From NCBI GenBank assembly GCA_020720085.1, contig DYPE01000001.1, forward strand, positions 1-64,000: DNA of 64,000 nt. Reading direction: 5' to 3'. The notes beneath the pieces were generated by a model. It searched no databases, was not told where the DNA came from, and saw only the letters and a list, made by a program, of their open reading frames with translations. The translations under genes were made by a program, and so were the position numbers. The first letter of the stretch is position 1, and every line of letters starts with the position of its first letter. The DNA is from Dichelobacter nodosus. Its GTDB lineage: Bacteria > Pseudomonadota > Gammaproteobacteria > Beggiatoales > Beggiatoaceae. Below are positions 18,071-44,880 of this stretch, piece by piece.

Positions 18071-19759
18071 TTACAATTCATCCACCATGGCGATGTATCC
18101 ACACGGGCATTCATGGGCGCATAGGCCACATCCCTTGCAGTAGTCGTAATCAAACACATAATGCGAGCCGTCGCTAGCCGATTCCTTGGTTTTGAGTACA
18201 GCGGAATCCGGGCACAAAGTCCAGCAATTGTCGCACGCCAGGCAGTTGCCACAGGAGAAGCAGCGGCGGCTTTCGGTCATCACTGCCGCATGGCCAAGGC
18301 CACTCACAATCTCGGTATTCTCTTTGCGTTCTTCTAACGGCAGCACCGCTTCCTGCGCACAAGTGGAGTGCTCGTAATACACAAGGTTTAATTCCGCGTA
18401 GCCGATGGGGTCGGTTTTTTTGGCCGAAGGTAAGGCTTCGCGGCGCAAGTCTGCCACAATCGCCATGGCGGCGCGGCGACCATCGCCGACAGCGGCGGTG
18501 ACCGTGCCTTCGTTGGCGCAGGCATCGCCACCTGCATACAGGCCAGCATGATGCTCTAAACGGCCCCAGGCATCCACTTGCAGGTGTGAGTTATATACCA
18601 CGCTTTCCATGCCAAAGGGATTAATAACTTGGCCAATGGCGGGGATGACTTGTTCTACATTAAGAATAGTTTCCGTGCCTGTGAATGCCACCCGTTTGAG
18701 GCGTCCGCCCGCTTGCATCAATTTTTTCATGTGCACCAGTTCCACACCCACCACTTTTTCGCCGCGTAAAATCAGACGGCGGATGCCTCGATATTCATGA
18801 ATTCTAACGCCTTCTTCCACTGCTTCACGTACTTCGCGTTCAATTGCGGGCATGGCTTCGCTCAATGGCACATTGGCACCCGGCATGGGTTTGTGCGAAA
18901 TCAAATGCACTTCCGGCACACCCGCACGGCGCATAATGCGCGCCACGTCCACGGCAGTATTGCCCGCGCCGACAATGGCCACGCTCTTCGGCGTGGGTAT
19001 TTTGCCGATGTCCATCCATTCTTGCAGCAATTCCAGCCCATATTGCAAATCTTTAGGCGACACGCCATCAATATTCCATTCGCGGCTGCGCTGCGCGCCA
19101 GGCGCAAGCAGTACGGCAACATGTTTTTCTTGTAAATCATGCAAATGAATGTCGCGCCCCAGACGGGTGTGGGGTAAAAAATGAATGCCGTCAAGCGCCA
19201 GTACGCGATTGATTTCCGCGTCCAATACTTCTCTAGGCAACCGATATTGCGGAATGGCGCTGCGCAGGATGCCGCCCGGCTCGGAGCGGTCTTCAATTAA
19301 AGTCACGCGCAATCCTAGGCGCACCAGGTGGTAAGCAGCGGATAAACCCGCTGGGCCAGCACCCACCACTGCGACGCTGGGCGCGTTCGCGGGCACTGGC
19401 GCGACCGGGTAAGGCCAGTCCTTGGCAATGGCTTCTTCGCCGAGGAAACGCTCTACCGCGTGAATGGCCACTGCCTCATCAAATTGTGTACGATTACAAG
19501 CCGTTTCACACACATGTGGACATACCCGCCCTGTAATCGCTGGCAGCGGATTGGCTTTGACCAACTCTTCCCATGCAGCGCGGGTGTGGCCGGATTGCAG
19601 ATGCGCCAGGTACGCTTGCGGGTTTTCTCCTGCTGGGCAGACATGGTGGCAAGGCGCGGGCTGGTAGCTGTGCACGGGTTTGCGCACGCGCCATGTGCCG
19701 GTCTTAAAATTGAGCGAAGTTGCAGGTTCGGCGTAAGCACCACGGGTCAGAATATTCAT
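18071..19759 (-). CDS. GltD-like FAD/NAD(P) oxidoreductase with C-terminal 2[4Fe-4S] ferredoxin domain
   Basis: 562 residues in three parts. The N-terminal GltD-type Fe-S domain has Cys37, Cys41, Cys80, Cys84 and Cys88 (CHHVCPAG and RVCPHVCETAC). A tandem FAD and NAD(P) Rossmann region has VAVVGAGPAGLSAAYHL (129-145), EPGGILRSAIPQYRLP and VAIVGAGNTAVDVAR. The C-terminal ferredoxin-like domain resembles the delta subunit of pyruvate:ferredoxin oxidoreductase (CFSCGNCLACDNCWTLCPDSA and DYCKGCGLCAHECPCG). It probably moves electrons between NAD(P)H and ferredoxin or a partner enzyme. No glutamate synthase large subunit or 2-oxoacid oxidoreductase gene is adjacent, so the partner is unknown. The extra Cys in CGNCLACDNC are unusual for a simple clostridial-type motif. 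Confidence 0.88.
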   Translation of the reverse strand: MNILTRGAYAEPATSLNFKTGTWRVRKPVHSYQPAPCHHVCPAGENPQAYLAHLQSGHTRAAWEELVKANPLPAITGRVCPHVCETACNRTQFDEAVAIHAVERFLGEEAIAKDWPYPVAPVPANAPSVAVVGAGPAGLSAAYHLVRLGLRVTLIEDRSEPGGILRSAIPQYRLPREVLDAEINRVLALDGIHFLPHTRLGRDIHLHDLQEKHVAVLLAPGAQRSREWNIDGVSPKDLQYGLELLQEWMDIGKIPTPKSVAIVGAGNTAVDVARIMRRAGVPEVHLISHKPMPGANVPLSEAMPAIEREVREAVEEGVRIHEYRGIRRLILRGEKVVGVELVHMKKLMQAGGRLKRVAFTGTETILNVEQVIPAIGQVINPFGMESVVYNSHLQVDAWGRLEHHAGLYAGGDACANEGTVTAAVGDGRRAAMAIVADLRREALPSAKKTDPIGYAELNLVYYEHSTCAQEAVLPLEERKENTEIVSGLGHAAVMTESRRCFSCGNCLACDNCWTLCPDSAVLKTKESASDGSHYVFDYDYCKGCGLCAHECPCGYIAMVDEL

Positions 19760-19838
19760 ATCGGATTTGTATCCTTTTACTGGGAAAGGAAAAATAACGA
19801 TTCAGGGCGTTCCCGCAAGCCATCACGGTTGCGGCCTA

Positions 19839-19984
19839 AGAAGCCGTTGGTAAAACTGCAAGTGCTTGATTTTCCGTTCCCTGAGCGTGTCGAAGGGCAC
19901 AGGAAATCAAGCACTTGCAATCGCCAAGCCGCGCACTTCGACAGGGCTTCAGTGAGTGGCTTGGCGATTTTACCAACAGCTTCT
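19839..19984. repeat. 146-bp compound palindrome (three-way junction) holding two hairpin repeats
   Basis: Outer arms 19839-19855 and 19968-19984 pair at 16 of 17 positions. Inside are two side-by-side hairpins. The first pairs TGCAAGTGCTTGATTTTCC (19857-19875) with its complement at 19902-19919, with one bulged T, and is capped by CCCTGAGCGTGTCGAAGGG. The second pairs TCGCCAAGCC (19921-19930) with GGCTTGGCGA (19958-19967) and is capped by a CACT/AGTG stem (19934-19954). Both caps belong to the CTGAG/TCGAAG family. The element fills the gap between the antiporter and the Fe-S flavoprotein gene and lacks a T run, so it is not a plain terminator. Confidence 0.85.
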
Positions 19985-20073
19985 AATGTGGGATCGTAGT
20001 ATACCCGTGTGTTTTCGACAACCGATTAACACGGGAAACAAAAATCATAAATGGCTGGAACCTCGCCAAATCG

Positions 20074-21255
20074 CTAATCCCGCCGCAAAGAATCTACCAA
20101 TGCGATGGGGGTGGGGAAAAACATCACAATGGCATACGACGACAGCACAAACGTAAGCAGCGTCGCGGTTTGGATGAGAAAAGACGCTTGTGCAGAAATC
20201 AATCCGCCGCTCAAACCCGCCACTGCGATGAGTAATGAGAACTCGCTGATTTGGCCCAAACGCACGCCCATTTCCCAGGACAATTTGTTTTCCTCGCCCG
20301 TGCGGATGAGCAGCCATTGGAATACGCCAGGTTTGATGGCCAACATCAATGCCGCCAGCACAAAGGCGGGGAACGCGACTTGTGGCAATATAATTAAGTT
20401 GAAACCTGCGCCTAGGGAAACAAAAAATACCACCAGAAAAAAGTCGCGCAACGGTTTCAGCCGTTCGGCAATAAACAGGGCAATGGGATTGGTGGCCAAC
20501 GCTACGCCAGCTACGAATGCGCCAATTTCATGGGACAGACCAATAAATTCCGCGAACGCGGCTAGGCCCAAACACCAGCCTATGGTCAGTAAAAAAATAT
20601 ATTCTTGAAATTTATCGAATTTCGTAATCAGCGGAATCAGCAACCAGCGTTCCGCTGCCAACGCCACTGCCACCAAACCTGGCAAGGATAACACCAGCCA
20701 AGCCGCTTGCAGTAAGGGCGCGCTGTCATCGGCATAGCCCTTGGACGCCAGCAGGAATAAAATTGCCAGCACATCTTGCAGCAAAAGTATGCTTACCATG
20801 ATTTCGCCAGCATGGCGGTGGTGCAATACCGTGGTAGGCAGCAATTTTAAGCCGAGAATGGTGCTGGAGAACATCATGCTGGCTCCGATAAACACGCAAT
20901 CGGTCCAAGTGTAGCCAAATAACCGTCCAACCCCCATGCCCAGCGCACTGAACGCCAGCGAGCTGCCCAGCGTAACCAGGATGGAGCGCCCCAGCATGGC
21001 GGATAAGTTTTTGATTTGTAGGTTCAGCCCCAGCAGAAACAGCAGGAATACAATGCCGATATGGGCGATGCCCGCCAGCAGATGCGTGTCATGCACCCAG
21101 CCCAATACATTCGGGCCAATCAGCAAGCCCAGCGCAATATGCCCAACCAGCAGGCTTTGGCGCGCGAACAGCGACGCAGTGGCCATTACTGCCGCACCGG
21201 AGAAGATGAGAAATAGGTAGAGAAAAATCAAATTTTCGGGCGAGGATGTGGTCAT
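20074..21255 (-). CDS. Kef-type monovalent cation:proton antiporter
   Basis: A 393-residue integral membrane protein of the CPA2 family with about 12 hydrophobic segments. Diagnostic stretches include SLLVGHIALGLLIGPNVLGW, FLLFLLGLNLQIKNL and FAEFIGLSHEIGAFVAGVALATNP, where the membrane-embedded acidic residues lie. It also has LRDFFLVVFFVSLGAGFNL. It is shorter than KefB/KefC because it lacks the C-terminal TrkA-N nucleotide-binding domain, so it may be constitutively active or use a separate regulator. It exchanges K+ or Na+ for protons across the inner membrane; the ion cannot be told from sequence. It lies 20 bp downstream of the Ntn hydrolase gene on the same strand. Confidence 0.9.
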   Translation of the reverse strand: MTTSSPENLIFLYLFLIFSGAAVMATASLFARQSLLVGHIALGLLIGPNVLGWVHDTHLLAGIAHIGIVFLLFLLGLNLQIKNLSAMLGRSILVTLGSSLAFSALGMGVGRLFGYTWTDCVFIGASMMFSSTILGLKLLPTTVLHHRHAGEIMVSILLLQDVLAILFLLASKGYADDSAPLLQAAWLVLSLPGLVAVALAAERWLLIPLITKFDKFQEYIFLLTIGWCLGLAAFAEFIGLSHEIGAFVAGVALATNPIALFIAERLKPLRDFFLVVFFVSLGAGFNLIILPQVAFPAFVLAALMLAIKPGVFQWLLIRTGEENKLSWEMGVRLGQISEFSLLIAVAGLSGGLISAQASFLIQTATLLTFVLSSYAIVMFFPTPIALVDSLRRD

Positions 21256-21275: not shown

Positions 21276-21842
21276 CTATGCGGGCAATTCCACCACGTCA
21301 ATAGGCGCGCCGCAGTATATATTGTAGGTAATCGCCGATCCCAGGCATTTTTCCGCCATTTCGCGCGCGTCCATGTCCATGTCATACAGCACATGCAATG
21401 CGCCCAAAGCGTAGGCACTCCCTGAGCCAATGGCATGAAAATGATGAAATTCAGTGACATTCATGTTGCCAGAAACATGAAATATCTGGCCATTGGCAAC
21501 AATCAAAAAAGCAGAGTCTAAATCGCCAAAGGGCGTGTTATGGTCATCGCTTTGGTCGTTGACAAAGGAATAGCGCTGGTGCAAATCTTTCCACAATTGT
21601 ATGAAAAATGAAAAAATAGCTTTTTTGCTATCCAATGAAATATTGGGATTTTCATTTTCATAGTGTTCCAAAATATCGCGGTACAAACCCCAACCCGTGG
21701 TGGCAATATAGGCATTGCCGAACTTCCGTAGCTTAGATTCCAAAATGTTGCCGCGTGCTGGCGTGCTGGAACCAAAATTATGTTGGGAGTCCGCTGCTAG
21801 GATAATTTGGCGGTTTTTTTTCAGCGCGAGAGCGACAGACAT
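21276..21842 (-). CDS. Proteasome/HslV-like Ntn hydrolase with predicted N-terminal Ser
   Basis: A 188-residue protein, close in size to HslV. The start MSVALALKKNRQIILAADSQ fits the proteasome beta fold: if Met1 is removed, Ser becomes residue 1 and Asp falls exactly at position 17, as in proteasomal peptidases. A lysine in LESKLRKFGNAYIATTGWGL can act as the Lys33 equivalent, shifted by about three residues. GSGSAYALGAL near residue 140 matches the family's late glycine-rich block. The usual nucleophile is Thr, so Ser is notable. No hslU-type unfoldase is adjacent; neighbours are glgA upstream and the antiporter downstream. AGGAA precedes the ATG. Substrates are unknown. Confidence 0.82.
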   Translation of the reverse strand: MSVALALKKNRQIILAADSQHNFGSSTPARGNILESKLRKFGNAYIATTGWGLYRDILEHYENENPNISLDSKKAIFSFFIQLWKDLHQRYSFVNDQSDDHNTPFGDLDSAFLIVANGQIFHVSGNMNVTEFHHFHAIGSGSAYALGALHVLYDMDMDAREMAEKCLGSAITYNIYCGAPIDVVELPA

Positions 21843-25321: not shown

Positions 25322-25344
25322 GGTGCACTGAGCTTGTCGAAGTG
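25322..25344 (+). repeat. CTGAG hairpin repeat, copy 6
   Basis: CACTGAGCTTGTCGAAGTG at 25326-25344 with a CACT/AGTG stem. It sits between the divergent hisE and kdsC genes. The block starting GCGGTGCACTGAG is shared with copy 3 in the IS1182 remnant. The rest of this roughly 290-bp gap shows no other clear feature beyond the kdsC ribosome site. Confidence 0.75.
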
Positions 25345-44857: not shown

Positions 44858-44880
44858 GCTTCGACAGGCTCAGCACAAGT
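44858..44880 (-). repeat. CTGAG hairpin repeat, copy 7 (inside IS3 frameshift site)
   Basis: On the minus strand CTTGTGCTGAGCCTGTCGAAGC follows GTTGAAAAA and is itself followed by AAAAGTCCGG. Removing 23 nt regenerates an A8G run and the OrfA ending WLKKKSGLS, the place where IS3 elements shift frame to make OrfAB. The copy also supplies the premature OrfA stop. Confidence 0.8.

Follow-up and report, generated by a model that had tools for sequence, protein, structure and literature searches.

A composite MITE with small dispersed hairpin units in its interior in a Dichelobacter nodosus draft genome

The small dispersed repeats of Nostoc are hairpin-forming units of about 24 nt, and the Rickettsia palindromic elements, which also form hairpins, are found as in-frame insertions within genes. 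REP sequences have been described inside larger palindromes (PMC3733652). Insertion sequences of the IS5 family that belong to its IS1031 subgroup insert at TNA with a 3-bp repeat, and ISLrh has 17-bp ends, GAACCTGTCTAGTATCT (PMC12016507). The stretch of DNA analysed here (the window, 64,000 nt) belongs to a draft genome, G000, of 2.97 Mb in 170 contigs that is about 87% complete. At 19839–19984 it contains a strongly folding element for which a first-pass annotation had considered a structured RNA, a BIME, or a mobile unit composed of two hairpin repeats. The element is a MITE (a non-autonomous DNA transposon), an assignment made because it has inverted ends, a fixed short target duplication and no coding capacity. 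We consider it very probable (about 0.9) that it is a composite MITE that carries very small mobile hairpins and is moved in trans by an IS5/IS1031-like transposase. The features of the locus are as follows.

18071–19759, minus strand: FAD/Fe-S oxidoreductase gene, GltD-like; start codon 80 bp from the element
19837–19839, no strand: target-site duplication TAA, left copy, by direct reading; TNA flanks in 13 of 13 complete copies
19840–19983, no strand: composite MITE, 144 bp; ends common to 13 complete copies, no transposase ORF within
19840–19856, plus strand: left terminal inverted repeat GAAGCCGTTGGTAAAAC; 2 mismatches to the family consensus GAAGCTGTTGGTAAAAT
19857–19919, plus strand: hairpin 1, a long palindrome whose loop contains the core unit; arms common to G031:C24, a copy in a relative
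19879–19897, plus strand: core hairpin unit, CC-CTGAGCGTGTCGAAG-GG
19919–19969, minus strand: hairpin 2, the second palindrome
19934–19954, minus strand: core hairpin unit, inverted and with a 2-nt insertion, CA-CTGAAGCCCTGTCGAAG-TG, by direct reading
19967–19983, minus strand: right terminal inverted repeat, identical to the family consensus
19984–19986, no strand: target-site duplication TAA, right copy, by direct reading; TNA flanks in complete copies
20074–21255, minus strand: Na+/H+ exchanger family gene; stop codon about 90 bp from the element

Fold and limits of the element

The coordinates given by the first-pass annotation, and its description of a 17-bp outer stem with one mismatch that encloses two hairpins, were borne out, and the arms could be located: the outer stem is formed by 19839–19855 with 19968–19984 (17 nt, one mismatch), hairpin 1 by 19857–19882 with 19894–19919, and hairpin 2 by 19919–19937 with 19951–19969. 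The minimum free energy of 19839–19984 is −82.3 kcal/mol on the plus strand and −82.9 on the minus strand, compared to averages of −43 and −42, respectively, for 200 shuffles (z −10.9 and −10.3), and 0 of the 200 shuffles matched the stability of the native fold. The two caps do stand in opposite orientation, as had been claimed, the first being CCCTGAGCGTGTCGAAGGG (19879–19897) and the second, inverted, being CACTTCGACAGGGCTTCAGTG (19934–19954), with 2 nt inserted compared with the common unit. The exact limits of the element are 19840–19983 (144 bp), one base inside either end of the folded segment, because the outermost pair, A19839–T19984, belongs to the TAA target duplication. Beyond the two genes of one strand that flank the element, a 188-aa protein of the proteasome-subunit (Ntn hydrolase) family, encoded at 21276–21842 of the window on the minus strand, adjoins the Na+/H+ exchanger gene.

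Copy family, target sites and candidate transposase

A search of G000 with the element gave 20 matches, and the part common to these was the end sequence GAAGCTGTTGGTAAAAT together with its reverse complement. Scanning G000 for this 17-mer with up to 2 mismatches gave 35 matches, versus 2 for the reversed pattern. The 17-bp ends recur in 13 complete copies, located on contigs C48 (the window), C37, C126, C52, C157, C88, C41, C38, C64, C27, C21, C156 and C154; three further MITE ends are cut by contig ends (C10, C141, C106), a solitary end lies on C87, and the family occupies about 17 places in G000. The first-pass annotation had named the absence of other copies among the results that would refute it; instead, many copies were found, and a second genus of the family has them too. 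All 26 sides of the 13 complete copies are flanked by TNA, and the left and right TNA are identical in 10 of the 13 (p ~1e-4), or in 14 of 17 pairs when copies from relatives are added (p ~1e-6); the unequal flanks are TAA/TTA on C88 and C21 and TGA/TAA on C156. The copies are short (79–193 bp) and non-coding, with no transposase gene, and their placement is mostly intergenic: when ORFs were called roughly after taking the element out, with a minimum of 110 codons for an open frame, 11 of the 13 insertion points fell outside predicted genes. The earlier proposal of a mobile unit composed of two hairpin repeats comes close to the mark: the element is a MITE whose hairpins carry a smaller dispersed repeat, and the outer stem consists of its terminal repeats. 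A further repeat type, a GTAGGGTGGGCAAAACG...TTTTGCCCACC palindrome, was seen fused or adjacent to a MITE end (G000:C10:1–120; C132 near 1332).

Copies were also found in relatives. G031, which belongs to another genus of the same family, contains a 119-bp copy on C95 flanked by TGA/TGA, with an interior as in C38 and C64, as well as a full-length relative of the window copy on C24, which has 88% identity over 137 bp and eroded ends. G015 contains 144-bp elements with the same ends, another palindromic interior, and the duplications TCA, TGA and TTA. Across the G031 and G015 copies the shell is thus shared and the cargo changes. A 1415-bp end pair in G009 (L089) was rejected, having no duplication and spanning unrelated genes. 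The end search across the genome contig collection gave 15 matches, all unpaired and chance-like, and in viral contigs it gave 95 unpaired, chance-like matches with no convincing pair among those inspected. The element had no match in plasmids and phages, and a 31-nt core palindrome had none in plasmids.

The interiors of the G000 copies differ. The left outer arm of hairpin 1 is deleted in C37, C126 and C52; C157 and C88 are without hairpin 1; C41 has extra cores; and C27, C154, C156 and C21 carry other palindromes inside. These differences bear on the possibility that the element encodes a structured regulatory or small RNA whose functional unit is the three-way junction. The very stable fold on both strands and the position between two same-strand genes, from which the element may be transcribed, would fit such an RNA, as would the pattern of paired change: in an alignment of 11 copies 91.6% of cells pair, and 9 pairs are changed on both sides versus 3.6 in shuffles (0 of 500). 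The inner stem of hairpin 1 likewise shows three paired changes between G031:C24 and the G000 consensus. Two-sided changes could mean selection on the fold; however, hairpin-templated correction during replication can give the same signal, and paired change was therefore not taken as evidence of RNA function. Furthermore, 19 of 57 stem pairs are disrupted in one copy or more, arms are often deleted, the parts that stay constant are the end sequence and the TNA flanks, and equal stability on the two strands points to a DNA palindrome. Rfam covariance models applied to the whole window matched a tRNA only and left the element unmatched, and promoter and terminator scans at the element gave no signature. 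Since there is neither an Rfam match nor such a signature, and since the fold is variable between copies, with the three-way architecture absent from many of them, the structured RNA of the first-pass annotation is a weak reading that we consider highly improbable. The three-way fold is an inverted-repeat shell with two palindromes, not a conserved RNA fold, and any regulatory effect of the MITE at this locus would be incidental.

DUF4096-type insertion sequences at TNA sites in related genomes span 866–980 bp. One in G017 has the ends GAGCCTGTTCAAAAT and a length of 866 bp, with TTA/TTA flanks, and one in G006 has the ends GAGGGTGTTTTAAAA and a length of 920 bp, with TAA/TAA flanks and two further copies at TTA/TAA. 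A GA(A/G)..TGT pattern is common to the MITE ends and those of the DUF4096 insertion sequences, and the MITE ends are similar, not identical, to the ends of the G017 and G006 insertion sequences and of ISLrh. Searches of the draft G000 with PF01609, PF13586 and PF13340 returned remnants or nothing, with no intact insertion sequence with matching ends, and no autonomous insertion sequence with exactly the ends of the MITE was found in the incomplete 170-contig assembly. Repeated elements tend to break contigs in draft genomes. From these sequence likenesses we infer that the MITE depends on an IS5/IS1031-type enzyme. Such a transposase, supplied in trans, would recognise the 17-bp inverted ends and insert the element at TNA, duplicating 3 bp. 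Being complementary, the ends show up as the outer stem. The interior is cargo, made up of palindromes that hold a dispersed hairpin of about 24 nt in their loops.

The core hairpin unit

Each hairpin cap is an independently dispersed unit of about 24 nt, (G)CTTG-YX-CTGAGCYTGTCGAAG-X'Y', whose length is a multiple of three and which is open in five of six frames. Exact copies of CTGAGCYTGTCGAAG number 89 in G000 (0 for the reversed control), 172 in G031, 8 in G013 and 0–3 in the other relatives searched, the counts outside inspected stretches coming from pattern searches only; with such copy numbers the core is not tied to the MITE. Literature searches for the 14-nt core, in either variant, and for the core-encoded peptides gave no match and nothing relevant. 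One viral contig holds an exact core 23-mer. Three more core units lie in the window outside the MITE (370–387, 25327–25344 and 44859–44873). In G031 there are tandem core arrays on C8 (31837–32107, period of about 39 bp) and C140 (1689–2089, about 47 bp), the latter immediately 5' of a gene that is similar at its start to tRNA-guanine transglycosylase, and the region G031:C66:17100–20200 contains several cores that centre perfect palindromes with unique arms of 12–23 nt, some of them in one ORF.

The first position outside the core forms a pair in 74 of the 85 G000 copies listed by the search (27 expected on base composition), and the second position does so in 66 of the 85 (37 expected); these copies and the G031 sites are those that the search listed and not a random sample. 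The two closing pairs covary, with at least three pair types, and the third and later positions pair little above expectation; in G031 the first two outside positions behave as in G000. Ten cases of a core nested in its own loop were found across G000 and G031. In G000, inverted repeats of at least 6 bp surround 30 of 68 distinct cores (12.7 in shuffles), and in G031 those of at least 8 bp surround 13 of 53 (1.4 in shuffles). Compared to four relatives, the leucyl-tRNA synthetase gene of G031 has a clean 24-nt in-frame insertion of the core, which encodes DASTSSAQ and has the reverse complement GCTTGTGCTGAGCTTGTCGAAGCA, with an edge that is ambiguous by about 1 base. A second site in this gene has a 63-residue in-frame insertion of several cores that is absent in nine relatives. 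The gene with both insertions lies in G031:C11:1400–3600 on the minus strand. Both insertions are direct signs that the core unit inserts. Because the core outnumbers the MITE, nests in itself and cleanly interrupts a gene of a relative, it spreads separately from the MITE, and most likely collects in the loops of palindromes, MITE-borne ones included. The most likely route would be insertion guided by single-stranded hairpin loops, and the preference for loops is probably a cause rather than a consequence.

It has also to be considered whether the inner hairpins owe their arms to snap-back copying, with the core as the priming site for copying the flanking strand and as a template-switching hotspot, an origin that would be compatible with the MITE reading. 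Some G031 cores centre perfect palindromes whose arms of 12–23 nt differ between sites, as if the flank had been inversely copied, and multi-base paired changes are seen between homologous arms. The 24-nt insertion in the leucyl-tRNA synthetase gene, however, has the core without extra arms, and thus it is the core itself that inserts, and snap-back would need to be a second step; we regard this origin of the arms as rather unlikely. It is possible but doubtful that the cap, as an autonomous mobile hairpin of about 24 nt, enters hairpin loops, among them its own, as well as genes, and can afterwards seed longer palindromes by inverse flank copying, with IS5-type MITEs as the vehicles of its spread.

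The first-pass annotation had further suggested a BIME. In a BIME or REPIN, REP sequences occur in pairs and owe their movement to a RAYT transposase. G000 does contain a gene for a RAYT-like Y1 transposase (G000:C102:15500–19000), and two inverted core hairpins within one unit resemble a REP pair. However, the apparent REP sequence 5' of this gene, read from translation, looks like the GTAG type (GTAGGGCGGATTAAGGCGCG...) and unlike the element, and the core has no GTAG or CGTC tag, the letters preceding it being CTTG, CGGTG, CGATG, GCGGT and others, with neither tag at the hairpin foot. The element instead has IS5-type 17-bp inverted repeat ends with a TNA duplication, which are not expected of RAYT-type movement, and this explanation is scarcely credible to us. 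Elsewhere, core units occupy the loops of palindromes similar to the REP-like one on C102.

Comparison with known systems

As a composite MITE the element has a shell of an ordinary type, and it is the cargo that exposes a two-tier system, in which a tiny self-multiplying hairpin, which in a relative occupies an essential gene without breaking its frame, is ferried by a MITE. If the movement of the core were pinned down, this could help to explain the spread of bacterial repeats that are too short to be transposons.

The core is like the Nostoc repeats in its length of about 24 nt, like the Rickettsia palindromic elements in its in-frame insertion into a gene, and like both in forming a hairpin, but its sequence and hosts differ and it also occupies the loops of other palindromes and its own loop. 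The shell is closest to the IS5 family, IS1031 subgroup, and to MITEs that derive from insertion sequences of this kind, with ISLrh likewise having 17-bp ends that start GAA.CTGT and a 3-bp TNA duplication (PMC12016507), and the DUF4096 insertion sequences of related genomes have the same design of ends and target. Unlike these insertion sequences, the MITE lacks a transposase gene and has a palindromic interior, and no parent element with the very same ends was found. With REPs, BIMEs and REPINs the system shares short imperfect palindromes, inverted pairs and a high copy number (PMC3733652, PMC3116915), whereas the core is without the GTAG or CGTC tag, and the ends of the 146-bp element are of the IS5 type and flanked by target duplications.
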